Assembly (NCBI RefSeq): GCF_963677715.1 | Contig: NZ_OY782493.1 | Coordinates: 496,001 to 560,000, forward strand | Direction of reading: 5' to 3' | Length of the DNA: 64,000 nt | Source: an uncultured Bacteroides sp. | Lineage (GTDB): Bacteria; Bacteroidota; Bacteroidia; Bacteroidales; Bacteroidaceae | Shown: positions 1-22,767 of the stretch, piece by piece | Position numbering within the stretch: position 1 is the stretch's first letter | Layout of the letters: the number at the start of each line of letters is the position of its first letter | Position numbers and translations under genes: made by a program | The notes under the pieces: generated by a model | Databases searched by the model: none | The model's input: the letters and a program-made list of their open reading frames with translations, nothing else | Told to the model about the DNA's origin: nothing

Positions 1-3000
1 TCAATTCCATAAGGTACAATTAAAGGAAATTCCTGCGCTATCGGGTACGGGCAAGGAAGATGTTTCAATTCCATAAGGTACAATTAAAGGATTGAAGGCT
101 CTGTTTCGCAAGGACTAGAGCAGACAAGTTTCAATTCCATAAGGTACAATTAAAGGATATCTTCACGTACTAAGGCTGGCGTAAGGGCTGCAAGTTTCAA
201 TTCCATAAGGTACAATTAAAGGATCCATGAATGAGGATGAATTATATCTTATGGTTAGTTTCAATTCCATAAGGTACAATTAAAGGAAAGTGTCTGATTC
301 TTGATCTATTATAGCTAAAAAAGTTTCAATTCCATAAGGTACAATTAAAGGTGCAATAATCGCACCGTGTTTCTTTATCATATTTATGTTTCAATTCCAT
401 AAGGTACAATTAAAGGGGTCGGAAATATAAAGGCGAGGTTGGTGTTATCTTTGTTTCAATTCCATAAGGTACAATTAAAGGAAAGATCTGGTTTGACGGC
501 GAGAACTGGAGACTTATGTTTCAATTCCATAAGGTACAATTAAAGGGCTGAAATAGACGCTGCACCAGAAATTGTTGAGTTGGTTTCAATTCCATAAGGT
601 ACAATTAAAGGCAGTTTGAAGTTATGTGTTATTACACGGAAAGCGACGTTTCAATTCCATAAGGTACAATTAAAGGATTATTTAAAAATATTAATAAAGT
701 CCTAATCTCTTTGTTTCAATTCCATAAGGTACAATTAAAGGCGGCTATACAATAGTAGTTACATATCTGCAATTCTCGTTTCAATTCCATAAGGTACAAT
801 TAAAGGCTTACTTTTAGATACTAACTTACTAAAATATACTTAGTTTCAATTCCATAAGGTACAATTAAAGGACGTTGTATTTGTTCATCCGTGTACTAAT
901 TGTATTAGTTTCAATTCCATAAGGTACAATTAAAGGGGCCGCAGCAACAGAGCTTACGCAGACCGTGAAAAGGGTTTCAATTCCATAAGGTACAATTAAA
1001 GGTTACGCCGTCTGGTGCTAAGCCTGTAATCTGAACGTTTCAATTCCATAAGGTACAATTAAAGGTCATTAACACTTGCAGGGCCGGGTTCAGCTTTGTA
1101 TAGTTTCAATTCCATAAGGTACAATTAAAGGTCTGAAGAGGCTCTTCAATTTAATAAAGATAACAAGTTTCAATTCCATAAGGTACAATTAAAGGAGCTG
1201 GAAACATTCCTCCTTATTTGATCGGAGGAGTTTCAATTCCATAAGGTACAATTAAAGGAAGATTTAATAGATGCATCCGTCAAAGATGGTAGCAGTTTCA
1301 ATTCCATAAGGTACAATTAAAGGGGTGTACTGAATGCGGTCATACATGGAAACCAACCGGTTTCAATTCCATAAGGTACAATTAAAGGAGCTAACGAATT
1401 TCTTTCAACGATTGAATTTAATGAGTTTCAATTCCATAAGGTACAATTAAAGGAACTATTTGCTTTATTGGCAATCGTGTTCTGAAGGCGTTTCAATTCC
1501 ATAAGGTACAATTAAAGGCCGGCTGTGCTTACAGAGAATCTATTTCAGGATAATAGTTTCAATTCCATAAGGTACAATTAAAGGTGGACTATGTGCGGTT
1601 ATGATGAGAACAAAGACGTGGTTTCAATTCCATAAGGTACAATTAAAGGCTGTTTTGTGGCTAGGTCCTGATACGCTTCAACTGTTTCAATTCCATAAGG
1701 TACAATTAAAGGCAGGTGAAATATTACAATCAAATGCAATAGTAAAAGGTTTCAATTCCATAAGGTACAATTAAAGGCTTCCATCTCTCCGATAAAACCA
1801 AGTTTCTTACCCGGTTTCAATTCCATAAGGTACAATTAAAGGACCGTTTGCCAATCCCTCAACGATATTCTCACAAAGTTTCAATTCCATAAGGTACAAT
1901 TAAAGGTTGAGAGCAATCGTTCAAGCAGCTTGTCACTCTTCTGCGTTTCAATTCCATAAGGTACAATTAAAGGCTTCATTCTATTCGCAGATTGTGTTCT
2001 GACTTCCAAGTTTCAATTCCATAAGGTACAATTAAAGGCTTAATAAAATTAAGCGCACTAATAGGAACACTAGGTTTCAATTCCATAAGGTACAATTAAA
2101 GGAATTTTAAATGATAAATATACGGAGCAAAGATAATAGTTTCAATTCCATAAGGTACAATTAAAGGGAGGGATAGTTTTATTTTTTATAGAAGTTTCTA
2201 CGGTTTCAATTCCATAAGGTACAATTAAAGGAATATTCAGCGATTGAGGTTGTAGAAGATAAGCCTAGTTTCAATTCCATAAGGTACAATTAAAGGGCTA
2301 TTCCGTGACCTTAAGATGAAAGAGCTTCCATCGTTTCAATTCCATAAGGTACAATTAAAGGCCTGCAAAGTGATATTGCTTGCTGTCTGATCTATGCGTT
2401 TCAATTCCATAAGGTACAATTAAAGGTAAAATCAGCAAAAACAGGAAACGGCGTCTGGTATCGTTTCAATTCCATAAGGTACAATTAAAGGACTAATATG
2501 TTTTGTAATGGTGAAATTGTTGAGCAAGTTTCAATTCCATAAGGTACAATTAAAGGTAGGTGAGATTAAATTTGTTTTGGAGGGTTCTCAAAGTTTCAAT
2601 TCCATAAGGTACAATTAAAGGATTCATCAATCGCATCATTAAACATTGTTCTTATATGTTTCAATTCCATAAGGTACAATTAAAGGTCAGCAGCTTTTTC
2701 ATCTAATGTTTTCATCTTTTATGTTTCAATTCCATAAGGTACAATTAAAGGTCAAGAGAAGTCCGGAAGGTAGAGGGATGCATACCTCGTTTCAATTCCA
2801 TAAGGTACAATTAAAGGATAAGGTTGAGCACAAAGTTGAGTACCACTTTTATGTTTCAATTCCATAAGGTACAATTAAAGGTGAGAAGATTCCCACCACC
2901 TGAAACAATAAAAATTAGTTTCAATTCCATAAGGTACAATTAAAGGTATTGTATAATACAGTCACGTATTTAGAGATTTCAGTTTCAATTCCATAAGGTA

Positions 3001-5204
3001 CAATTAAAGGTCGAGCACTTGCTGTTCAATCTGCTGGCGTTTTTCGTTTCAATTCCATAAGGTACAATTAAAGGGCAAATCGTTATTGCTAAGAGGAATC
3101 CAAATATACGAGTTTCAATTCCATAAGGTACAATTAAAGGTTGACAGAAGATCAGCTTAACCAAAAAGTGAGAGTTGTTTCAATTCCATAAGGTACAATT
3201 AAAGGCGTAATTTGGGGCAGCCTAAATTTACCATATTGAAGTTTCAATTCCATAAGGTACAATTAAAGGAGTACTTTTAATTATAAAACCGTAGAGGGTG
3301 AAACAGTTTCAATTCCATAAGGTACAATTAAAGGACAGCCAAACTATTGCTGAATGTGTCAATTTGTCGAGTTTCAATTCCATAAGGTACAATTAAAGGA
3401 TTTCTCATCGCATGTGTTCATTAATGGATTTAGAAGTTTCAATTCCATAAGGTACAATTAAAGGATCAAAAGTTGTTTCTTTTATCGACCATGTAAAGAT
3501 GTTTCAATTCCATAAGGTACAATTAAAGGAAGACTATACGATCTCAAATAAGTACCTTGATAGGAGTTTCAATTCCATAAGGTACAATTAAAGGACGTGG
3601 GATCAGCTTGCAGAAGTCCTTAACTCAACAGTTTCAATTCCATAAGGTACAATTAAAGGCGGAACATCCTGAATTGGCCAACAAAAGTGTTATGTTTCAA
3701 TTCCATAAGGTACAATTAAAGGATGTACGTAAATAAGAATATGAGCAAACGAATATGTTTCAATTCCATAAGGTACAATTAAAGGTTTTCTGACTGTTCC
3801 TCTTTCGGTTCTATCTTCCAGTTTCAATTCCATAAGGTACAATTAAAGGTCTTTCATCGTTCATTAATATTTGATTTAGCTTAATTTGTTTCAATTCCAT
3901 AAGGTACAATTAAAGGACCCCCTAAGTATTCGTTACAATAAAAAAAACGATGTTTCAATTCCATAAGGTACAATTAAAGGTGAGAATTAGCCTTCCGGTA
4001 ACGGGGAATCTGAAAGGTTTCAATTCCATAAGGTACAATTAAAGGATGTAAATTGTATTCAATTGACTTCAAATTAAAGTCGTTTCAATTCCATAAGGTA
4101 CAATTAAAGGTCTGTAATCCCGTGGTGTAGGGCGTTTTAGCGGTGTGTTTCAATTCCATGAGGTACAATTAAAGGGTTGTACTCAGACTGTGAAAGCCCT
4201 AGCTTTCCACGTTTCAATTCCATGAGGTACAATTAAAGGAAAAACTAACAAACTATTATTTACAAACACCTGTCAAGTTTCAATTCCATGAGGTACAATT
4301 AAAGGTTCGTCACATTAAGAGCTTGATTGAATTCAACGAGTTTCAATTCCATGAGGTACAATTAAAGGCTAATGCTTTTTGTAACTTCTTATAAAAGGCT
4401 TTCGTTTCAATTCCATGAGGTACAATTAAAGGCTCCGCGGTAGTAGTGCAACTATTGAGCATAAATAGTTTCAATTCCATGAGGTACAATTAAAGGTATC
4501 AAAATCAGAGTTCAGTACAAAGTTTACAACATGTTTCAATTCCATGAGGTACAATTAAAGGACAACGTTCGTGTATGTTCTATCTGTCGAATTCTTTGTT
4601 TCAATTCCATGAGGTACAATTAAAGGCACAATACGCTTCTATGAATATAAACGATTCGCAGCAGTTTCAATTCCATGAGGTACAATTAAAGGAAAGGAGA
4701 AAACATTATATGAAGATTTAAAAAACCAGTTTCAATTCCATGAGGTACAATTAAAGGCGCTAATGAGATACCCTTTTGATTCATTAACTTGGTTTCAATT
4801 CCATGAGGTACAATTAAAGGGTGATGCAGCTTGTTGATGGTACCGGGAGGAATTAGTTTCAATTCCATGAGGTACAATTAAAGGTGTAAACACAATACTG
4901 GCTGCCAGCGTGGTAACACGTTTCAATTCCATGAGGTACAATTAAAGGCCTAGTTGCAATGTACAGGGTATTAAAGTCAATGAGTTTCAATTCCATGAGG
5001 TACAATTAAAGGGGAATTACTTATGTGTCAAGCGACGGAGCAACACTGTTTCAATTCCATGAGGTACAATTAAAGGAAATAGAAAAATTGTCTGGGCAAA
5101 GCGTACTGTTGTTTCAATTCCATGAGGTACAATTAAAGGACTTTGTATTCGTACATCCATGCACTAACCGTATTAGTTTCAATTCCATGAGGTACAATTA
5201 AAGG
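1..5204 (-). CRISPR. Long type I-B CRISPR array (81 repeats, 80 spacers visible)
   Basis: A 29-base repeat recurs 81 times with spacers of 34-38 bases. The first copy (1-26) lacks three bases at the window edge, so the array continues to the left; the last copy is 5176-5204. Read on the minus strand the repeat ends in ATTGAAAC, the usual 8-base 5' handle of type I-B crRNAs, so transcription runs right to left and the leader lies between the array and cas2. The 64 leader-distal repeats (up to 4082-4110) carry CCATAAGG and the 17 leader-proximal ones (from 4147-4175) carry CCATGAGG on the plus strand. Many spacers stay open in one frame on either strand, as expected for protospacers in phage genes. 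Spacers 872-907 and 5140-5175 are diverged versions of one protospacer. I saw no exact duplicate spacers. Confidence 0.99.
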
Positions 5205-5416: not shown

Positions 5417-5680
5417 CTATAAGAAAATATCTATACTACTACGCTCTTTTCCAACGATTTGTTTCTCAGTCCACTTCACATCTCTGCCTTTGAAAATGAT
5501 AATGCTATCGCTCTCTTCCTTCATAAACTTTTTGGCAGCAATGAGTAACTCATGCAAGCGAACTTCCGAAATCTCACCCTCAAAGACGGAGTTCTGAATC
5601 CAATTCAGATACTTGCGGCAAAGCTTTAACATTTTTGCTACGCGCTTCTCTCCGAAATCGTAAACTAGAATCACATACAT
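5417..5680 (-). CDS. cas2: CRISPR-associated endonuclease Cas2
   Basis: This 87-residue protein has the usual Cas2 length and the first beta strand MYVILVYDFG, whose Asp8 is the conserved acidic residue at the dimer interface. Cas2 bridges two Cas1 dimers in the spacer integration complex. It is the last gene of the cas operon, four bases after cas1, and is followed by a terminator-like stem and the array leader. Confidence 0.95.
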   Translation of the reverse strand: MYVILVYDFGEKRVAKMLKLCRKYLNWIQNSVFEGEISEVRLHELLIAAKKFMKEESDSIIIFKGRDVKWTEKQIVGKERSSIDIFL

Positions 5681-5684
5681 ATAG

Positions 5685-6701
5685 CTACCAATACATCTTA
5701 AATGGTTTATACTCTTCTATTTTCAACAAATGCTTTGTCAGCTTATAGCATTCTAATTTTATCAAATGTCGATAACTGACATTGCGTTTCAAACTACGAT
5801 GCTGAATGGTCTCCTGAAGTCGATCTTCCAATGCTTTTACAAAGATCTTTTTTCCTTCTGAGTTTAACAAGCATTTATTCAGTTTCTTGTCGAAATGTTT
5901 CTCTTGAATCTCTTTTTTGTTGAGCACTTTGAAGATCACACGATCAACGATTATCGGCTTAAAGATCTCTGCTACGTCCAGTGCCAACGAGTATCGTCTT
6001 TCACCCGGAGTGTGCAGAAAGCTTATTGTCGGGTTGAGCTGCGTTTGGTTAATTGCACGCAAACACAGTGTGTAGCAAATCATGTTACCAAAAGAGATCA
6101 ACGCATTTACCTCATTGCGAGGAGGCTGTTTAGTGCGGTTGCCCATCTCGAAATCATTTAAGATCAAGTTGAAAGCATCATAGTAGGTCTGGCGAATCAT
6201 TCCCTCCACACCCATCAACTCTTGAACCGTTTTTGATTCAGGAATCTTCAGAGAAAGCAATTTCATGATCTCCATAATATCCTCCATATCTTTCCCTCTG
6301 CGATTGTAGTATTGCAGATTCTTCAACATGTTGAATACAGCCCCATCGATAAATTTCTGGGCAATGATGAGGCATCTCTTTTTATCCTGATACGCTGCCG
6401 TTTGAGCCAATAACATTCTACCCGATAAGAGTCCGTCGCGGGGCATAAAAGATCCGGTATAATTCTCATAATAGTCAAAGAAATGAACGGCTATATCCTT
6501 CTGCCCTAAGAAGTTGAATAATGCGCTGTTGGCTGTCAGCGAGCCAAAAACATAGAACTCGTTTATATCTTCTACCGGTAGATAACGTGGGGTTCCCTGA
6601 ACCGGATGCTCAGCTTCTACATCCGATATGGGAGTAAACTTCAACGTGTTGTCTCGCCTCTCCAACGATCCGGGGTTAAATAAATAGTACGTCTTTTTCA
6701 T
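5685..6701 (-). CDS. cas1: CRISPR integrase Cas1 (type I-B)
   Basis: This 338-residue Cas1 catalyses insertion of new spacers at the leader end of the array. The metal-binding residues are visible: Glu166 in GVEGMIRQ, His230 in [10 protein letters not shown], and Asp242/Glu245 in [12 protein letters not shown]. Length and motif order fit the Cas1b group. The start overlaps the cas4 stop by four bases, so translation is probably coupled, and cas4-cas1-cas2 form the adaptation block. The high spacer count and the recent spacers at the leader suggest that adaptation works or did so recently. Confidence 0.97.
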
Positions 6702-7210
6702 TCTTCTTCCTCCGTGCTATAACAAAAGTCATAATAACTACAATTCTTACAGATGCGTTTTTTCACTAGGGGAGGGCACTCCTCGCTTTCGATAATCTTT
6801 CGTATTTCCGTCTCCATAGTCTGGATTGTTTCCCTGTCGATATCCGATAATACGATAGTATCCGTTTTCCTCAAAACAGGATACTCCAATATGCCCGTTA
6901 CGCCTACAATGCCATTTTTCTCGAACACGTACAAGTAATATTTTAGCTGCCATTCATGCGCTCTCTCCACTTTATTGGACTTCTTTATTTCATGAATCAC
7001 CTTGTTTCTTGTGTCATAGAAGTCCACCTTGATTCCATCCAGTTCCACTTCTTCATATTTCGAAGAGCGTTGCGGATATGATTCCTCATGAATAAGTTTC
7101 CCCTCATAGACCAGATCCGAAGTATGTTCCATGCTTATCTCGTTAGCAAACAGCCAAAGCTTGCGTTTGCATACTTGATAATAATTGAAGTGAGTGCCTG
7201 TTGTTTGCAT
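6698..7210 (-). CDS. cas4: CRISPR-associated exonuclease Cas4
   Basis: This 170-residue Cas4 is a RecB-like nuclease with an iron-sulfur cluster that trims prespacers and helps select PAM-proximal ends. The motifs are complete: Cys14 plus Cys154, Cys157 and Cys163 ([11 protein letters not shown]) for the cluster, Asp63 in KVDF, Glu74/Lys76 in EIKKSNK, and the QLKYY motif at 88-92. It lies two bases after cas3 and overlaps cas1. Confidence 0.95.
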
Positions 7211-7212
7211 AC

Positions 7213-9498
7213 CTATATTACTTGATTAAAATCATCAGATTTTTCTTCAATATCTAGCTGTAATCCTAGATCATCATCATATTTTCTATCAATAACATAA
7301 TATGATTGTTCTTTAATTGTATTTTTCTTAAGCATTTCAAAAGCTGATATATCGCGATGAATGCCTTCATTCGTAATGATAGAAACAAAGCGCCTCTTTG
7401 TTACGGATACTTTTAAACTTTCTGCCTTAATAAATTTATTTTCTTCCAATAGCTTAAGGTATTGAGATGTCAGAATAGAAGGGAGAACTTTTACTCCATC
7501 AAATTGTTTTTCAAATTCTTCTTCGCGATGTGAGTCATAGATAAACGGAGCAAGATTTTCCATCACGTCTGCTTTTAGATGCGAATATACCCGGTCGAAA
7601 TCTTCCTTGTCTTTTTTGTTCCAACCAACATAAACATCATCGATATGTTTTTGCATATCGATTTCGGCAACTACTCCTGAATTGTGAGATTGTATTTTAC
7701 GAAGGGCATCTAGTGTTCGTGTGATAACTTCTTCGTTTTTATAAATATATTTATCTATGTCGTTCCGCATAGAGAAAATGATGCAATCACACGGTGGGCG
7801 ATATTGTCCATTTACCCGATGGCGATTGACACGCCCAAAACGTTGCAACAAGGCGTCGAGTGGGGCTGGTTCAGTGAAAATAACATCGTAGTCAATATCC
7901 AAACTTACTTCGATGGCTTGCGTTCCAACAAGAAGTTTTACTTCATCTAATTTTAGTTCACTTTCCTTTTTATTCCGATCAATGCCATTAAACGCACTAT
8001 GCAACAACACTTTCTTTGAAGCATTTAAACTGTTGTAAATGGCTTGGGCTTGCTTCACCGTATTACTCACTACCAAAACTTTGTCACCTGCATTTAGTCG
8101 TTGCTGAATATCTTCAATGTGTTCTGAAAGTAACCCGTCAGCAACTTTGATTCTGTGACGAATAAACGATTGGTAAAGATCAGCATCAGCACTGATTTCC
8201 GAGTATTCACCGATGGCATCGGTAAACTCTTTTTTTAGGAAAGTTGGAAGAGTGGCCGTCATTAAACAGACTTTTACATTCAGAAACTTAGTGGCAAATT
8301 CAATTAAAACTTTGATCTGTGCCGTAACTTCTGGATCGTAAGCATGAATTTCGTCGAAAATGAAATAACCTCCACTCATTTCGAAGATGCCTTTTTCAAA
8401 ACCTTTCAATCCAAAAATGGATTTCAACAACTGGAAAGGGGTTGCCACTTTTAGCGGAGGTACCAAAGCCCTAAAGCTCTCTTTCAGTTGATTCTTCAGT
8501 TTTTCATTTTGACAACTATCGTTTTCGTCGCCAAATCGGCTTTCGATATATTCCGCAAGTTTTCCATGAACAACACCTACAATTCCATTATTTCCCTGCA
8601 TTTTATCATCAAGTCTCTCGAACATGGCATTGATGGAAGCTGTAAACGGCAGAATGTAAAAAGTCCGTCCTTGTCCGTTCTCTTTCATTTGTTTGTGCAG
8701 CCACATCAATGATGCTTCTGTTTTACCAGAACCAGTAGGCGCGGTAAGCACAATGTTTCCATTTATTTCCGAAGCCTTTTTTTGGTGGAAATACGGAGCC
8801 CACTTTGTCTCATACAAGAAGTTAAAATGCTTTTCTTCTAAAACATTTACTTTGAAAACTCCGGCAGAGGCAGAGTGGTCGCATTGTTTTAACGCCCCTG
8901 CCGCCAATAATAATTCTTTGAAATTGATATTTGTTGAATTGACCGGATTACGTGTATAATCCTTTATCAATTGTATGGGCAACACCAGCGGACTTGATTT
9001 TAATGAAACATGGTATCCTTTAAGGAAGGACTGAATAAATCGATCATTTAGTTTTTTGGTTTCTTCATCCCAATCCAATTTTCCATCTTCGCCTAGCGAC
9101 AATAAATCTTCGCCTGTTTTATAACCTTTTTGAATATGGTTGAACAGGAAAATGAAATCCTTGTGATGTCCGGCTATAATCAATTTCAAGAGCAACTTAT
9201 CCTCTTCAGGTAAATCCAATTGTTCCACAAACGGAACTGAAAACAGTTCGTGCCGCTGGTGATACCAGTTTTTCTGCTTTCCTAAAAGCATTTTCTGAAA
9301 CTCGGAATGTGCTTTTCCTAAATCGTGAAATATAATGCTCAAGCGAACAAGTTCCCAGAAATGGTTCAAATCATTCACGGGTAAACGTCCAAATGCTTTT
9401 CGGAGCGAATCATATACGCTCAGGCATTCATCGATGTGCTGCTTTAAGGATATAGGAGGTTCTGATTTCGCCAGAACCTCCTGGTCACTAATTTTCAT
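7213..9498 (-). CDS. cas3: CRISPR-associated helicase/nuclease Cas3
   Basis: This 761-residue fusion of an HD nuclease and a superfamily 2 helicase degrades DNA marked by Cascade. HD residues are present: His21, His58-Asp59 in IFHDLGKAH, and His111-His112 in AGHHKDF. Helicase motifs follow: Walker A TAPTGSGKT (252-260), DEIH (382-385), TATLP (414-418), and the QRFGRVNRHR motif VI near residue 560. No motif is lost, so interference should be competent. The start overlaps the cas5 stop. Confidence 0.97.
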   Translation of the reverse strand: MKISDQEVLAKSEPPISLKQHIDECLSVYDSLRKAFGRLPVNDLNHFWELVRLSIIFHDLGKAHSEFQKMLLGKQKNWYHQRHELFSVPFVEQLDLPEEDKLLLKLIIAGHHKDFIFLFNHIQKGYKTGEDLLSLGEDGKLDWDEETKKLNDRFIQSFLKGYHVSLKSSPLVLPIQLIKDYTRNPVNSTNINFKELLLAAGALKQCDHSASAGVFKVNVLEEKHFNFLYETKWAPYFHQKKASEINGNIVLTAPTGSGKTEASLMWLHKQMKENGQGRTFYILPFTASINAMFERLDDKMQGNNGIVGVVHGKLAEYIESRFGDENDSCQNEKLKNQLKESFRALVPPLKVATPFQLLKSIFGLKGFEKGIFEMSGGYFIFDEIHAYDPEVTAQIKVLIEFATKFLNVKVCLMTATLPTFLKKEFTDAIGEYSEISADADLYQSFIRHRIKVADGLLSEHIEDIQQRLNAGDKVLVVSNTVKQAQAIYNSLNASKKVLLHSAFNGIDRNKKESELKLDEVKLLVGTQAIEVSLDIDYDVIFTEPAPLDALLQRFGRVNRHRVNGQYRPPCDCIIFSMRNDIDKYIYKNEEVITRTLDALRKIQSHNSGVVAEIDMQKHIDDVYVGWNKKDKEDFDRVYSHLKADVMENLAPFIYDSHREEEFEKQFDGVKVLPSILTSQYLKLLEENKFIKAESLKVSVTKRRFVSIITNEGIHRDISAFEMLKKNTIKEQSYYVIDRKYDDDLGLQLDIEEKSDDFNQVI

Positions 9499-10154
9499 AC
9501 TTTTATTTCATGAAGAAATATATCACAATTAAATTCGGCTGCATCATGGCAATAACCTTTTAACTGTGAATTTACTGGATTGTCATAAGATATTACTGTA
9601 TAAGGTGCTGTGTTTAAATTCTTACGAGGAATTGTATTTGTAAAATACTGAGGCAATGCTTGTATTTGCCCAGGTAAATAATTATCAATAAATGGAATTA
9701 TTTGACCTGCAATTTTAGCATTTTCGATTTGCTTTAATTCAACAGTCTTTATGCTTTCCACTCGAGCTAAATCACAACTTCTTCCTAATAATAATGGATA
9801 GACAGGTTGTTTCAAACAAGATATCAAATATTCGTCAGTCAAGTAGATAAAGAGACGACAATCATAGAGAAATTCTCGTTGAATAACATTCGATTTTGCT
9901 ATGTTTTTGGGATATTTCTTTTCGTGAGCTTCAATTTGATAGATTGTCTCTAAGTCTACTGCTTTACATTTAAAGTCAAAATAATATCCTAAATAGAACT
10001 CCCTTTCTTCTATATATTTACCAGAAGCAGCATTTAATAATCCCATGACAGTGCTGATAGGAGGGACTTCAAGTGTAGGATGAAATCCTGAAATTAAATT
10101 TGGATATCTAAAGCTAGAAGTCCATGTTTCAATTTTTACACAAAAAGCTTTCAT
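9495..10154 (-). CDS. cas5: Cascade subunit Cas5 (type I-B)
   Basis: This 219-residue RAMP protein opens with the Cas5 N-terminal region (MKAFCVKIETWTSSFR) and the PPISTVMGLLNAASG motif typical of the Cas5t/Cas5b group. Cas5 caps the 5' handle of the crRNA in Cascade. It overlaps cas7 upstream and cas3 downstream by four bases each. Confidence 0.92.
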   Translation of the reverse strand: MKAFCVKIETWTSSFRYPNLISGFHPTLEVPPISTVMGLLNAASGKYIEEREFYLGYYFDFKCKAVDLETIYQIEAHEKKYPKNIAKSNVIQREFLYDCRLFIYLTDEYLISCLKQPVYPLLLGRSCDLARVESIKTVELKQIENAKIAGQIIPFIDNYLPGQIQALPQYFTNTIPRKNLNTAPYTVISYDNPVNSQLKGYCHDAAEFNCDIFLHEIKV

Positions 10155-11251
10155 TCTATAATTTTAGATTTCAATTCTTCACAATATTCATCTATTGCTT
10201 TGTTTACAGGTAATATTTCAACAACAGGAATATCTGACATCGTTTTTAGGGAACTGAGTTGAGATACAATATCATCCATAAATCCTGTTCGATAACCAAT
10301 AAATACTTTTCCGATGAATGTTTCTTTATAATCCTTGAGAACTTCAATTAATCCTTCAATATTGAACACCATATTTTGATCCCATTCACCATTGCTTTTC
10401 ACAATGTGGCTAAAAGGATGGTTTCCTGTGTTTGTTGTTGCTAAGATTATAAACTTAGGTGTTACATCTCCCATGTTATTTGTTTGCATGGCACCGCCAG
10501 AAATAAACTTTAATGCTTTTATCGTTTCTATTGCTCTTTTTTCACGTATTTCATCGGATAATCTTAGAAGTTTTTTGGGATTACCTTTGCCATCTAAAAC
10601 AAATGGGTCATCAATTTGCGTAGCACCGTTCTTTAGTGCTTCTTCCTGTAACAGAGCTGAAAGGTTTTTATATCCAGTACGGTCATAATTAGAGAATGTT
10701 CCAACCATTGAAATGTCTAAGCTAAACATTCCCTTCATTATTGTGCTGTATTCTTGTTTTTGATAAGGAACGGCATCTCCTTCTTGACGAGACATACTAG
10801 ACCAATGATCAGCAGGAGTTACACTTCCTACGGAAATAATTGCAGAGTTTTTTAGTGGAGATACGCGAGTAACAGTTACATTTGTTAATTTAGGATTTCC
10901 TTTTTTATCTTTTACCACTTCTCCATTTTCATCTACTTCTACATCTTTTGCTGCACGCATATAGCCAAAAACATCATCATCAGGATATTTCAATGGGTCA
11001 GCGTTTGTGAATACAATCTTGCCTTCTCTCGTTAATGGTGACAAATTCCATCCTATATTCTTTTGAAGTGCTTCTCGCCACCAATAACGCCATGCTTGTC
11101 CTGATACATAAACATAGTTTCGCCCATTTTTTTTAATAGATTTAGTAGCGATACCATTCTCATTGTTGCTGGAAGTGTTTTTACCTGCATTGTTTAATGC
11201 AACAGCATCTACATCAAGTAAAATGAACCCTTGAGTTTTAATATTTTTCAT
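10151..11251 (-). CDS. cas7: Cascade backbone subunit Cas7 (Cst2/DevR group)
   Basis: This 366-residue RAMP protein forms the filament along the crRNA spacer. The N-terminus (KTQGFILLDVDAVALNNAG), the YVYVSGQAWRYWWRE segment and the glycine-rich SGGAMQTNNMGDV segment fit the type I-B Cas7/Cst2/DevR family. I chose the ATG at 11251 because it sits just after the cas8 stop and begins at the conserved strand; an in-frame start at 11287 would lie inside cas8. Confidence 0.93.
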   Translation of the reverse strand: MKNIKTQGFILLDVDAVALNNAGKNTSSNNENGIATKSIKKNGRNYVYVSGQAWRYWWREALQKNIGWNLSPLTREGKIVFTNADPLKYPDDDVFGYMRAAKDVEVDENGEVVKDKKGNPKLTNVTVTRVSPLKNSAIISVGSVTPADHWSSMSRQEGDAVPYQKQEYSTIMKGMFSLDISMVGTFSNYDRTGYKNLSALLQEEALKNGATQIDDPFVLDGKGNPKKLLRLSDEIREKRAIETIKALKFISGGAMQTNNMGDVTPKFIILATTNTGNHPFSHIVKSNGEWDQNMVFNIEGLIEVLKDYKETFIGKVFIGYRTGFMDDIVSQLSSLKTMSDIPVVEILPVNKAIDEYCEELKSKIIE

Positions 11252-11258
11252 AGTATGA

Positions 11259-12686
11259 TTATAAATTATTGATTTCTGATTCTTCATCTGATATTAATTC
11301 TAAATTAGCAACCTCTGGTATGAGCTCTCGCTCATGAAGTTCTTGATAGATTGCGATAAGCAAAAGATCTCTTGTTTCTGCCCAATACGATCCGTCCGGG
11401 AATAAATAATCATTGTAATCTTCTATGCTTATTATTGCATTTTTATTCCCATTGGCGTAGTTTTTAGCTACCACATTTTTTAGTAAAATGCTTCGTACTG
11501 TTGATCCATTTTTTGCACTGTCTAAAGTTTGAATTCGCTTTTTAATCTTATCAGGATTTTCGTCTTCAACTAAGAACGATGCTAATTCTTTAATTTTAGT
11601 GATTGTGGCTTGTTTCATACCAATAATGTTTTGTTGATAAATTTCTACTATTTTAAAATTGAAAGGTTGCTTGCGCGACCAACGTAAAATCTCTGGTCGT
11701 ATATTTTCTTCATTCAATAGCTTATTATATATTACGTTAAACCATTTTTGATATTCTTCATACTTTATTTTTTCTGTTTCTTTTGGTTTAATTATTTCAA
11801 TATCATCTGTATTTAGATTGTATTTTGCTCCTTTATGTTTGCTATCGAAGAAATATGATCGAACAAATTTTTGCCAATCATCTTTAAATTTGGCTTGTAA
11901 GCAAGTTCTGTAAAAAATGAACATTTTTGCAGGGAGTTGATAAATTTGTATTTCAGGACTTGCACCGAAATTGGTGAAATGGTATAAAGTTACTGAAGTT
12001 GCTATTTGATTATTCAAGAACTCTTGAGATAGAGACAGGGAATTATCCACAAACTGAAAAAGAGCATTGGCTGGTTTATTCATTTCAGATTTAGAAACGC
12101 CATCAGAAATGTTAATTGCGATTTCGTGCAAATTTCTTTCTACTACTTGATTGACAAAAAACTCACTTAATATCTGATTACTACTTTGTATAAGGCAAAT
12201 CTTTCCTTGTAGCTGCTGACATGCAAAAGGCACAAAATGGATTCTAATGAGAGCTTCTTTCGAAAGAGAGATGCCTTTCTGGAAATAATGATGGAAATTA
12301 ATTAATGTACCAGATCCAGTCATAATAGTATTGTCCCGTCCTCCAAAAAACAGCTTTGTTTCTTGCCCTGTAATTCGACAGAAACCCAACTCAAAAGGTT
12401 CTGTTTCATTGAGTAACCTATTAAAGTAGTTCAGTGTTTCATCTATTTTTCGCTGACCCTGAAATGCAGGCTGAGTGATCTTTGAATTTAGAAAAAAAGC
12501 ATTCAATTTCCCACCCCATTTTTCTACATAAATCTTGGTGACATAATCAATTAGCTCCAGAATGCATTTCTCCGGGAACTTCGCGAAAAGTAGTTTAATT
12601 GCAAATCCTCCTGCATCAGCAAATGGATCTCCTGTTGGCTTTGTAAGCCATTCTTGGTTTATAAGATCTCTACCTATTTCTTTCAT
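11259..12686 (-). CDS. cas8b: Cascade large subunit Cas8b (Cst1-like)
   Basis: This 475-residue protein occupies the large-subunit position before cas7-cas5-cas3. Its N-terminal TGDPFADAGGFAIKLL (residues 18-33) resembles the conserved start of Cst1/Cas8b1 proteins. Cas8 reads the PAM and anchors Cascade on DNA. The protein is divergent, as Cas8 proteins usually are, so the subtype rests on the N-terminal motif and gene order. Its ATG overlaps the stop of the small upstream ORF as ATGA, pointing to coupled translation. Confidence 0.85.
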   Translation of the reverse strand: MKEIGRDLINQEWLTKPTGDPFADAGGFAIKLLFAKFPEKCILELIDYVTKIYVEKWGGKLNAFFLNSKITQPAFQGQRKIDETLNYFNRLLNETEPFELGFCRITGQETKLFFGGRDNTIMTGSGTLINFHHYFQKGISLSKEALIRIHFVPFACQQLQGKICLIQSSNQILSEFFVNQVVERNLHEIAINISDGVSKSEMNKPANALFQFVDNSLSLSQEFLNNQIATSVTLYHFTNFGASPEIQIYQLPAKMFIFYRTCLQAKFKDDWQKFVRSYFFDSKHKGAKYNLNTDDIEIIKPKETEKIKYEEYQKWFNVIYNKLLNEENIRPEILRWSRKQPFNFKIVEIYQQNIIGMKQATITKIKELASFLVEDENPDKIKKRIQTLDSAKNGSTVRSILLKNVVAKNYANGNKNAIISIEDYNDYLFPDGSYWAETRDLLLIAIYQELHERELIPEVANLELISDEESEINNL

Positions 12687-12877
12687 TTCTTTATCTTTAT
12701 TATATTTTTTATAATAACGTGAATAATATGATGATCTTCTTCGTCTTCAAAATAATCAAATATTTGATTATTTTGAAGACCTTCTTTTTTTAGTTCAGTT
12801 ATTTTAAAGATCAAAAATACTCTTAGGTCTTCGTAATCAAGATAATATCCATCTTCAGTTTTATAATTTATTTCCAT
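12683..12877 (-). CDS. Small acidic protein heading the cas operon, unknown function
   Basis: This 64-codon ORF begins at the first ATG after the operon promoter (predicted transcript start near 12890), is rich in Asp, Glu, Tyr and Ile, and overlaps cas8b by four bases (ATGA). I do not recognise the family. Its reading frame passes through a perfect 38-base palindrome at 12743-12780, so ribosome movement through it would decide whether a hairpin forms just before cas8b. It may be a leader peptide, a small Cascade-associated protein, or a regulator. Confidence 0.6.
   Translation of the reverse strand: MEINYKTEDGYYLDYEDLRVFLIFKITELKKEGLQNNQIFDYFEDEEDHHIIHVIIKNIIKIKK
12743..12780. repeat. Perfect 38-bp palindrome inside the first ORF of the cas operon
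   Basis: The two 19-base halves are exact reverse complements, from GTCTTCAAAATAATC at the left to its mirror at the right, centred on AAATATTT. The operon mRNA can fold it into a stem of about 17 bp, 57 bases or more before the cas8b start. It is not followed by a T-run. Confidence 0.95.
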
Positions 12878-12896
12878 ATAGCAATTTGTTTTTTTG

Positions 12897-12927
12897 CAAA
12901 TGTATATAAAATAACTATATGTCCAAA
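12897..12927 (-). promoter_or_regulatory. Promoter of the cas operon
   Basis: On the minus strand TTTG (12927-12924), 19 bases, then TACATTTG (12904-12897) matches the Bacteroides consensus exactly. Predicted start is near 12890, giving a leader of about 13 bases before the small ORF. The TTTG box overlaps the site matched by the crRNA-like guide. Confidence 0.8.
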
Positions 12928-12943
12928 TTATAATTGTGTTATT
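12923..12943 (+). promoter_or_regulatory. Candidate self-target site of the crRNA-like RNA: CCA plus 18-base protospacer
   Basis: AATTATAATTGTGTTATT (12926-12943) matches the guide-like sequence 13025-13042 at 16 of 18 positions; the mismatches are at positions 6 and 12, and similarity stops after position 18. The three preceding bases are CCA (12923-12925), a known kind of type I-B PAM. The site covers the upstream box of the cas operon promoter, so Cascade bound here would block RNA polymerase. The short match should allow binding without Cas3 cutting. Confidence 0.65.
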
Positions 12944-12960
12944 ATTAAATTATTAAGTGG

Positions 12961-12991
12961 TTTGCTTTTTCGAAAATAAATCTTATCTTTG
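12961..12991 (+). promoter_or_regulatory. Promoter of the crRNA-like RNA
   Basis: TTTG (12961-12964), 19 bases, then TATCTTTG (12984-12991) is an exact Bacteroides promoter on the plus strand. The predicted start near 12998 falls right at the repeat-like sequence. It diverges from the cas operon promoter 34 bases away and reads toward the 3' end of cas6. Confidence 0.75.
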
Positions 12992-12997
12992 TCTAAT

Positions 12998-13092
12998 AGT
13001 AATTGGACCTTAGGGAATTGAAATAATTACAATTGAGTTATTTGTCCTAAGACTTGTTTCTTAAAGGTATACCTTTGAGAGATAAGTCTTGG
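12998..13092 (+). ncRNA. Candidate crRNA-like regulatory RNA (degenerate repeat, guide, 3' hairpin)
   Basis: TAATTGGACCTTAGGG followed by AATTGAAAT (13000-13024) matches the last 25 bases of the minus-strand CRISPR repeat at 22 positions, including seven of eight handle bases. The following 22 bases (13025-13046) form a guide-like stretch with 16/18 identity to the cas operon promoter at 12926-12943. A 21-bp stem with a TATA loop follows (13047-13067 with 13072-13092). It has four G-U pairs and no mismatch as plus-strand RNA, but those pairs become C-A mismatches on the other strand, which supports plus-strand transcription. The layout (own promoter, orphan repeat, partly matching guide, position between cas6 and cas8) resembles CreA-type antitoxin/regulator RNAs known from haloarchaeal type I-B loci. 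Exact RNA ends are guesses. Confidence 0.7.
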
Positions 13093-13110
13093 ATTTATTA
13101 TAACTTTCAT
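13027..13110 (-). CDS. Possible 27-residue ORF directly after cas6
   Basis: An ATG four bases after the cas6 stop opens a 27-codon frame beginning MKVIINPRLISQRYTF, rich in Lys/Arg, ending at TAA. It lies wholly antisense to the crRNA-like RNA. It could be a small toxin of a CreT kind or a chance frame; no clear ribosome binding site is seen. Confidence 0.2.
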   Translation of the reverse strand: MKVIINPRLISQRYTFKKQVLGQITQL

Positions 13111-13114
13111 ATTT

Positions 13115-13894
13115 TTATTTTCTACTAATTTTCACCATTCCCCATCCTTGTGACCCTTTCATCCCGATGCCGCTTTCATACATGATCTTCACCAACTCCT
13201 CATTTACCTTAATCTTGAACCGACACATATATCCTTTTACCCTTGATTCTTCAGGCGTTCCGGCTTTAAAAGTTATCAGTACAGGTTTGGGAGCATTCAG
13301 CACTTCAAAGTTAAAGTCGACTGTGCCTGCGTAGGGTTTACCGTAGAATGCTTCATACCTATTTAATAAGCTGAAAAGGAGTGATTCTTTAGAACGTTGG
13401 TCTTCTGGCGATAGATAATCGGTGCGACCATCTTCATTGCGTAGTGCGATGCAGATAGGAGAGAGCGTTTCAAACGTCATCTCTTCTTCTAAGTATGGTG
13501 GAGGAAGCACTTCAATGCTCTGCACACGAAATTGTACTCTATTCCTTTGATTGCCCAACTGAAAGGTCTGATTCATGAAAACGCCTTGAATAAACTTTTC
13601 GGTCGACTCTTCGGGAAGGAAAGAAACATACCATTCTATCGTATCACTGTTTATGAGAAGAAGCGCGTGTTGCTTGTCAATGATATATTGGGGAATAAAG
13701 AGTCTGGAGTAAGTGAAGAGTTTAAACTGTTTGGAATCAGTTGTAAAACCGTTGTTGTGTAGCCATGTTGCATAGTCTGCACTGGCATAAGACAGAGTTT
13801 TGTATATAACTGCCGATTGTTCGTACTGGTAATTTAGCGGTAGGGCATTGCCGAAGGCTTGTTTTTCTGTGTTTAGTGTGATTTTGAATCTCAT
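13115..13894 (-). CDS. cas6: CRISPR pre-crRNA endoribonuclease Cas6
   Basis: This protein of 259 residues carries the glycine-rich loop of Cas6 at its C-terminus (GIGMKGSQGWGMVKISRK) and the two-RAMP-domain length of the family. Cas6 cuts the repeat transcript to leave the ATTGAAAC handle on each crRNA. I use the ATG at 13894; a TTG two codons upstream is less likely. It is separated from the rest of the cas genes by 237 bases holding the crRNA-like element and has its own promoter, so it can be expressed while the operon is repressed. Confidence 0.93.
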   Translation of the reverse strand: MRFKITLNTEKQAFGNALPLNYQYEQSAVIYKTLSYASADYATWLHNNGFTTDSKQFKLFTYSRLFIPQYIIDKQHALLLINSDTIEWYVSFLPEESTEKFIQGVFMNQTFQLGNQRNRVQFRVQSIEVLPPPYLEEEMTFETLSPICIALRNEDGRTDYLSPEDQRSKESLLFSLLNRYEAFYGKPYAGTVDFNFEVLNAPKPVLITFKAGTPEESRVKGYMCRFKIKVNEELVKIMYESGIGMKGSQGWGMVKISRK

Positions 13895-13918
13895 CAGCAA
13901 GTTGATTTTATTTTTCGC

Positions 13919-22467: not shown

Positions 22468-22497
22468 AAAAAGAGTAACCGGGCAGTCACTCTTTTT
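22468..22497 (-). terminator. Terminator after the tRNA-Lys pair
   Basis: AAAAAGAGT (22468-22476) pairs with ACTCTTTTT (22489-22497). On the minus strand it follows both tRNA genes and ends in T6. Confidence 0.7.
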
Positions 22498-22498
22498 G

Positions 22499-22571
22499 TG
22501 CACCCTCAGGGATTCGAACCCTGGACCCATTGATTAAGAGTCAATTGCTCTACCAACTGAGCTAAGAGTGC
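22499..22571 (-). tRNA. tRNA-Lys (anticodon CTT)
   Basis: The minus strand reads GCACTCTTAGCTCAGTTGGT at the 5' end. The anticodon loop CTCTTAA lies between ATTGA and TCAAT, and the T arm is GGTTCGAATCC. The acceptor stem closes GCACTC with GAGGGTGC and the discriminator is A. CCA is not encoded. It is identical to the second copy. Confidence 0.97.
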
Positions 22572-22602
22572 TTACTAAATTAATGCATAAGAAATAAAAG
22601 TG

Positions 22603-22675
22603 TGCACCCTCAGGGATTCGAACCCTGGACCCATTGATTAAGAGTCAATTGCTCTACCAACTGAGCTAAGAGTGC
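22603..22675 (-). tRNA. tRNA-Lys (anticodon CTT), second identical copy
   Basis: This copy has the same 73 bases as 22499-22571 and lies 31 bases upstream of it, so both are probably cut from one transcript. The flanks differ, which suggests the copies are not a very recent duplication of a larger block. Confidence 0.97.
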
Positions 22676-22767
22676 TTACATCATTTCTTATTTGCGGATG
22701 CAAAAGTAGGCCTTTTATTTTATTTGGCCAAGTAAACCGGGGCTTTTTTCCTTAAATATTCCCTTGC

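Follow-up and report, generated by a model that had tools for sequence, protein, structure and literature searches.

A predicted CreR-type autorepressor RNA at a Bacteroides type I-B cas locus, with co-varying guides and cas promoter targets in related loci

A solo CRISPR repeat followed by a short guide to the locus's own predicted cas promoter was found between cas6 and cas8b of a Bacteroides type I-B system. We consider it likely, with a probability of about 0.88 judged from the DNA sequence, that this element encodes a CreR-type RNA which would lead Cascade to block that promoter, and we refer to it as creR. Divergent promoter motifs, an intact handle core, an 18-base guide, a PAM, a target at the -33 box and guide-target co-evolution over 15 loci are all observed. 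The first-pass annotation of this DNA had proposed a Cascade-guided autorepressor or, in brackets, a CreA antitoxin; guide-target matching holds in relatives, and of the two readings the autorepressor is favoured.

The window, by which we mean the whole 64-kb stretch of Bacteroides DNA analysed, carries a type I-B (cst/Tneap) system whose genes lie on the minus strand in the order cas6 (13115..13900; TIGR01877, 6.8e-41), a 64-aa ORF (orf64), cas8b (11259..12686; PADLOC Cas8b, 8e-29), cas7 (Cst2/DevR, 10151..11287; TIGR02585, 1.4e-53), cas5 (Cas5t, 9495..10154; TIGR01895, 8.4e-37), cas3 (7213..9498; TIGR01587, 1.2e-74), and cas4, cas1 and cas2 (5417..7210), followed by the array. The array (1..5204, minus strand) holds 80 complete repeats inside the window and spacers of 34-38 nt; 63 exact and 17 one-mismatch copies of its repeat (CCTTTAATTGTACCTTATGGAATTGAAAC, minus strand) lie at 62-5204. 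One array spacer, at 5013-5047, matches contig C3 of its own genome near 129193 at 32 of 35 positions, with TTCCA upstream. The mismatches of this self-matching spacer fall at positions 3, 4 and 33, and it may escape targeting through seed mismatches. Elsewhere in the window, 22497-22575 and 22601-22679 are identical 79-base copies whose starts are 104 bases apart, and these look like tandem tRNA genes.

The creR element lies on the plus strand. Its predicted promoter at 12961..12991 (TTTG at 12961-12964, a 19-base spacer and TATCTTTG at 12984-12991) matches exactly the -33/-7 sequence that we take to be the Bacteroides promoter consensus and used to score both predicted promoters. A degenerate repeat, psi-R1, follows at 13000..13024 and agrees with the last 25 bases of the array repeat at 22 of 25 positions; its 3' end is the 8-nt 5' handle ATTGAAAT (13017-13024). 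Behind it stands the 18-nt guide (13025..13042), which matches 12926..12943, given here as the non-target strand of the protospacer (plus strand), at 16 of 18 positions, with mismatches only at 6 and 12. The target is preceded by the PAM CCA (12923..12925, plus strand) and overlaps the -33 box of the predicted cas operon promoter, which runs on the minus strand at 12897..12927 (TTTG at 12927-12924, a 19-base spacer, TACATTTG at 12904-12897) and is likewise an exact consensus match. The first-pass annotation had described the exact plus-strand promoter, the repeat-like stretch and the 16/18 match behind CCA; recomputing each gave the same fit and the same alignment.

Downstream of the guide, a hairpin at 13044..13094 (plus strand; -29.8 kcal/mol, z -8.25, equalled by none of 200 shuffles) is likely the terminator and 3' end of creR, and possibly also serves cas6, whose end lies at 13115 on the opposite strand. 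Its U-tract is modest. No second repeat of a mini-CRISPR was found next to creR in the window. In place of the two or more repeats and 34-38-nt spacers of the array, there is a single repeat, a match that stops at 18 nt and a hairpin that begins at 13044. Two features of CreR are present here, namely a crRNA-like gene with a degenerate repeat outside the array, and limited complementarity to its own cas promoter next to a PAM (16/18, CCA, overlap with the -33 box).

Guide and target are both AT-rich, and some similarity could arise by chance in such DNA. Dinucleotide shuffles of 12878-12998 never reached a 16/18 match (0 of 20,000), the best being 15, in 19 shuffles. On both strands of the 64-kb window, the target is the sole site with at least 15 of 18 matches apart from the guide itself. 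The 3.9-Mb genome contains a single copy of the guide pattern with its PAM, CCNAATTANAATTGNGTTA, and the exact full guide pattern found no second target there. As a control, the 79 array spacers were compared with 12878-13115, and their best match was 13/18. Against these figures, and with the recurrence of the pairing among relatives clearly above controls, coincidence is scarcely credible.

The PAM was assessed from a published system and from protospacers of this and related arrays. For a B. fragilis I-B system, the excerpted text of one analysis (PMC9367070) gives G at positions 2 and 3 downstream; as read here, this motif corresponds to 5'-CCN when written in crRNA sense, and all 15 targets described below conform to it. 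The B. fragilis repeat from the same excerpts shares 25 of 29 bases with the window repeat, a likeness judged on the repeats alone. Protospacers of this and related arrays, all of them imperfect, were collected for 12 distinct spacers from distant phage searches and same-genus genomes (four of the 12 spacers from genome G081, whose effector genes differ); five had CC at -3,-2 at every site seen, and one more had it at two of seven sites. A near-identity phage search for array protospacers returned nothing, three further phage searches gave no match, and one more had only chromosomal flank among the matches listed. Viral contigs scanned with a leader-repeat string also gave no match, a negative that carries no weight. 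Because few, imperfect array protospacers show CC, the PAM call rests mainly on the excerpts of PMC9367070.

Related loci were collected through cas8. Searches found it in 6 of 158 genus, 8 of 399 family, 16 of 393 order and 9 of 395 phylum genomes; these sets overlap and each counts the window's own genome. A scan of genome contigs with two peptide patterns gave 42 cas8 loci, a lower bound for such contigs. We compared 64 rows (the 42 contig loci, seven of the eight genus-family loci, 11 order loci, three phylum loci and the window), leaving out L007, which is a second piece of the L006 gene, and the weak or fragmentary L064-L068 and L072-L076. Removal of eight duplicates left 56 distinct loci, and in 52 of these the sequence ahead of cas8 extends for 300 nt or more. 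The creR element was detected in 15 of the 56 (the window, L002, L003, L012, L016, L020, L022, L024, L025, L026, L028, L029, L030, L044 and L045) and is divergent from cas8 in all 15. The labels of these loci include Bacteroides, Prevotella, Paludibacteraceae, Dysgonamonadaceae, Prolixibacteraceae and Niastella; for L026 the label is Chlorobiota, and MAG labels may be wrong.

Each of the 15 guides matches the site upstream of its own cas genes at 14-17 of 18 positions, next to CCA in 14 loci and CCT in L024. Between loci, the guides resemble one another at only 2-11 of 18 positions, outside two groups of similar guides (window, L002 and L003, 12-17/18; L012, L022 and L024, 11-14/18). When guides were swapped between loci (210 pairs), the mode of the matches was 11-12/18, and 10 pairs reached at least 14; the own and swapped sets are partly dependent, as close relatives have similar guides. 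Such matching in relatives was one of the points on which the first-pass annotation had staked its reading, and it held in the 15 of 56 loci that carry the element.

Mismatches within the own pairs are unevenly distributed: positions 1-5 have none, position 6 has eight, positions 12 and 18 have nine each, and the fifteen positions other than 6, 12 and 18 together account for 11 of 225 cells. The first selection of loci masked guide positions 6, 12 and 18. A second selection therefore relied solely on the handle, a CC PAM and bases 1-5, leaving bases 6-18 unused, and returned 14 loci with exactly one pair each; L025 falls out on account of its handle. Among the 14 reselected pairs, 17 of 28 cells at positions 6 and 12 are mismatched versus 10 of 140 at 7-11 and 13-17 (p=1e-9, a value that treats pairs as independent although some loci are related). 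Cascade flips out every sixth guide base, and the excess at 6 and 12 therefore represents a Cascade signature in the guide-target pairs. Such a pair accompanied 14 of 18 divergent handle matches, none of four same-strand matches and 16 of 678 matches to shuffled handles. A scan that made no use of the handle recovered 14 of the 15 creR loci, missing L029, and its other matches were a few repetitive or overlapping ones in L019, L051 and L060.

Close relatives illustrate how the pairs change. Between the window and L003, guide and target are altered together at the paired positions 7, 11 and 13, and uncoordinated changes are found at 6, where only the guide differs, at 12, where only the target does, and at 18, where the two take different letters. 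Joint guide and target changes at paired positions also occur within the L012, L022 and L024 group. L002, 88% identical to the window in cas8, differs from it in guide and target only at the free position 12. Two similar AT-rich sites within one divergent intergenic region could also be two operator copies for an ordinary DNA-binding regulator, but in all 15 loci one copy sits behind a CRISPR handle and the other behind a CC PAM, the sequences vary between loci, and mismatches pile up at 6, 12 and 18, all of which makes an operator pair highly improbable.

Promoter motifs recur across the creR loci. In 13 of 15 loci the cas strand has a TAnnTTTG box no more than 33 nt from the PAM (shuffles: mean 0.32, maximum 3), and in 11 of 15 a creR box of the same form lies upstream of the repeat (shuffles: mean 0.48, maximum 3 of 15). 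The -7 box was not found on the cas side in L003 and L016, nor on the creR side in L003, L012, L016 and L030, L012 having one slightly farther off. The handle core, GGAATTGAAA, is exact in 13 of 15 loci, with one mismatch in L044 and two in L025. Hairpins of -12.8 kcal/mol or lower lie downstream of the guide in 12 of 15 loci including the window; these are the best of many windows, and the shuffle control applies to the hairpin of our window only. L025, whose handle carries the two mismatches, showed no hairpin downstream of the guide.

A relic of the 5' half of a second repeat was recognised 16-24 nt past the handle in six of the 15 loci. In L026 a second, degenerate repeat can still be recognised, beginning about 16 nt past the handle, and a terminator-like hairpin comes after it; this locus is an apparent intermediate between a mini-array and the single-repeat form. 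We infer from these comparisons that creR genes may descend from mini-arrays with very short spacers, in which the second repeat would have decayed or been replaced by a terminator. The window's element could alternatively be a decayed mini-array, inactive in this genome: its repeat has three changes in 25 bases, its handle ends in T where the window array has C, and no second repeat was found. Such a relic is very unlikely given that all guide bases 1-18 except 6 and 12 still match, that guide and target of L002 differ from those of the window only at a free position, and that both predicted promoters are exact consensus matches; the array repeats of several relatives likewise end in T.

The element was not found in 41 of the 56 distinct loci, bearing in mind that four of the 56 have less than 300 nt upstream. 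In 29 of these 41, an open frame of 110 codons or more, in some cases antisense, ends within 122 nt of cas8. The gap before cas8, measured in 37 of the 41, is at least 161 nt in eight (L023, L048, L049, L050, L055, L061, L062 and L070); among creR loci it is at least 149 nt in all 14 measured of the 15. On a cas8 tree of 48 rows, from which L006, L036, L041, L043, L047, L069, L070 and L071 were kept off as fragments or remote matches, the presence of creR requires eight changes, at least seven of them forced by well-supported branches. Labels shuffled on this tree need 13.0 changes on average (2 of 500 as low), so creR is more clustered than they are; even so, the distribution is patchy, and repeated gain or loss appears to underlie it.

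No creR was detected upstream of cas6 where cas6 abuts cas8, in a scan covering as much as 2,000 nt ahead of cas8 (1,500 or less in some loci). Among Bacteroides loci that share the repeat and cas4, cas1 and cas2, no creR was found in 20 flanking stretches searched with repeat variants of up to eight mismatches; the 20 are part of all array flanks, and one is only 268 bases long. Six Bacteroides loci (L124, L131, L133, L135, L136 and L140) have a cas6 that is 70-91% similar to that of the window, and similar cas4, cas1 and cas2. They show no match to the window's cas8, cas7 and cas5, except for 44-53% in L140, and effector modules appear to have been swapped between shared flanks. In the stretches read from these six loci, creR was not found.

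These features suggest the following model. Transcription of creR would start from the promoter at 12961-12991, and Cas6 would cut the RNA within the repeat to leave the ATTGAAAT handle, giving a predicted RNA that begins with ATTGAAAT followed by AATTACAATTGAG and has its 3' end set by the hairpin at 13044-13094. Cas8, Cas7 and Cas5 loaded with creR would bind CCA and the 18-base target, and the bound complex would occlude the -33 box and reduce transcription of orf64-cas8-7-5-3-4-1-2. The R-loop would be too short to recruit Cas3, and neither cutting nor priming would follow. The repression would be lifted when array crRNAs or anti-CRISPR proteins draw Cascade off the creR guide. In excerpts on haloarchaeal CreA (PMC8501985), the RNA depends on bases 1-5 and 7-11 but not on 6 and 12. 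In those on Haloarcula I-B (PMC10989794), spacers of up to 24 nt repress without interference or priming, and target mRNA stays at about 65-67% with 16- and 20-nt spacers versus 10-29% with 21-24 nt; an 18-nt match may therefore repress weakly. More broadly, we lean towards the view that Bacteroidota I-B systems have their own lineage of autorepressor guides, each made of a repeat, a guide of roughly 16-20 nt and a terminator. The 3' end of the guide would come from termination and not from a second Cas6 cut, Cascade would bind the cas promoter without cutting, and paired positions would be rewritten jointly, with free drift at 6, 12 and 18.

Another possibility is that creR is an antitoxin of the CreA type, so that the repressed promoter drives a toxin, either an RNA or orf64, that becomes harmful in cells deprived of Cascade, in the manner of CreTA or CrePA. 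Haloarchaeal CreTA occupies the same gene position. Within the genome, the guide pattern has its one site at the orf64-cas8 promoter, and orf64 ('TEDG' family; 12683..12877, minus strand), a gene absent from the first-pass annotation, is the first one behind it. Similar ORFs precede cas8 in four other creR loci (L002, L003, L012 and L024), and the family counts seven database proteins including the window's own. No known toxin is recognised at this site, and orf64 overlaps the start of cas8 by 4 nt. Family searches with orf64 gave nothing above cut-off, DUF5638 and SAM_DprA appearing only below their curated cut-offs, and thus no match to KilA-N, the protein-toxin feature of CrePA, or to any toxin family. 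Its predicted fold would be three helices (pLDDT 83), for which no PDB match was found at E 0.001.

The spacing in other loci also bears on the antitoxin reading. The target begins 35-95 nt before cas8 in six of the 15 loci (L020, L025, L028, L029, L030 and L045), and none of these has an ATG ORF of at least 24 aa before cas8 save a 25-aa one in L020. The distance in L016 is 38 nt, from a cas8 start taken 186 nt before the homologous start that may be wrong. An antitoxin of the CreA or CrePA kind was rejected as first choice on the short target-cas8 spacing and the lack of a toxin family in orf64, and we regard it as unlikely; the first-pass annotation's bracketed alternative thus loses ground where so little room for an ORF is left.

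A perfect 38-base palindrome lies inside orf64 (12743-12780), and the only three Rfam matches, all below gathering score, fall over it. L002 has a 38-base inverted repeat with 15-base arms at nearly the same place in other letters, which suggests that a hairpin inside orf64 may have been kept between the window and L002. In L003, L012 and L024 the longest inverted-repeat arms are 6-9 bases and located elsewhere.

If the autorepressor reading of creR is true, self-control of CRISPR by crRNA mimics reaches gut and environmental Bacteroidota, and would suggest how a Bacteroides strain could hold an 80-repeat system quiet yet ready. The 15 pairs of guide and target, which fall into about eleven groups with unrelated guides, would amount to a natural experiment on what Cascade needs in order to bind and not cut: a PAM with CC and bases 1-5, 7-11 and 13-17, with 6, 12 and 18 free. 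Short natural guides would then be on offer for gene repression with native Cascade.

Several known systems resemble creR. The tracr-L of S. pyogenes Cas9 is reportedly a naturally occurring short guide that represses the promoter of its own cas genes, and creR is similar in this respect; tracr-L differs in belonging to a type II, single-effector, tracrRNA-based system. For CreR itself, a cas-regulating RNA, the primary paper is Liu et al. (2023, Cell Host Microbe 31:1481). The next comparison is with the antitoxins, as they are presented in excerpts of the papers cited. CrePA, a protein toxin with a crRNA-like antitoxin (PMC12737573), shares Cascade-guided repression of a neighbouring promoter; it differs in that no KilA-N protein stands behind the promoter here, orf64 being unrelated in family searches. 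CreTA/CreA (haloarchaeal I-B, PMC8501985 and PMC9458426; Acinetobacter I-F, PMC10097628) shares the degenerate ectopic repeat, the free positions 6 and 12, and a promoter target with the PAM inside a promoter element, but the target here is the cas promoter, and no toxin gene was recognised.

The closest counterpart is CreR, which in excerpts of PMC13131331 and PMC12737573 is an autorepressor RNA aimed at the cas promoter in types I-B, I-E and V-A, and which senses crRNA supply and anti-CRISPR proteins (PMC13131331, PMC12948488, PMC12737573). Since one or two ectopic repeats are given for CreTA in the excerpted PMC9458426, a second repeat was not counted as defining for CreR. The literature searched, partly as excerpts and with the primary CreR paper (Liu et al. 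2023) outside its scope, yielded no case of creR in Bacteroidota. The first-pass annotation knew of no description for this locus, and none was found in that literature, but the kind of RNA is already in print. Like CreR, the element described here would be a crRNA-like RNA with partial complementarity to the cas promoter and a predicted autorepressor role; it differs in belonging to cst-type I-B systems of Bacteroidota and in having one repeat, a short guide and usually a hairpin in place of the second repeat. The CreR kind is thus already known, and what is new within the literature searched is its presence across Bacteroidota, a clear record of co-evolution between guide and target, and a one-repeat, mostly hairpin-ended form.
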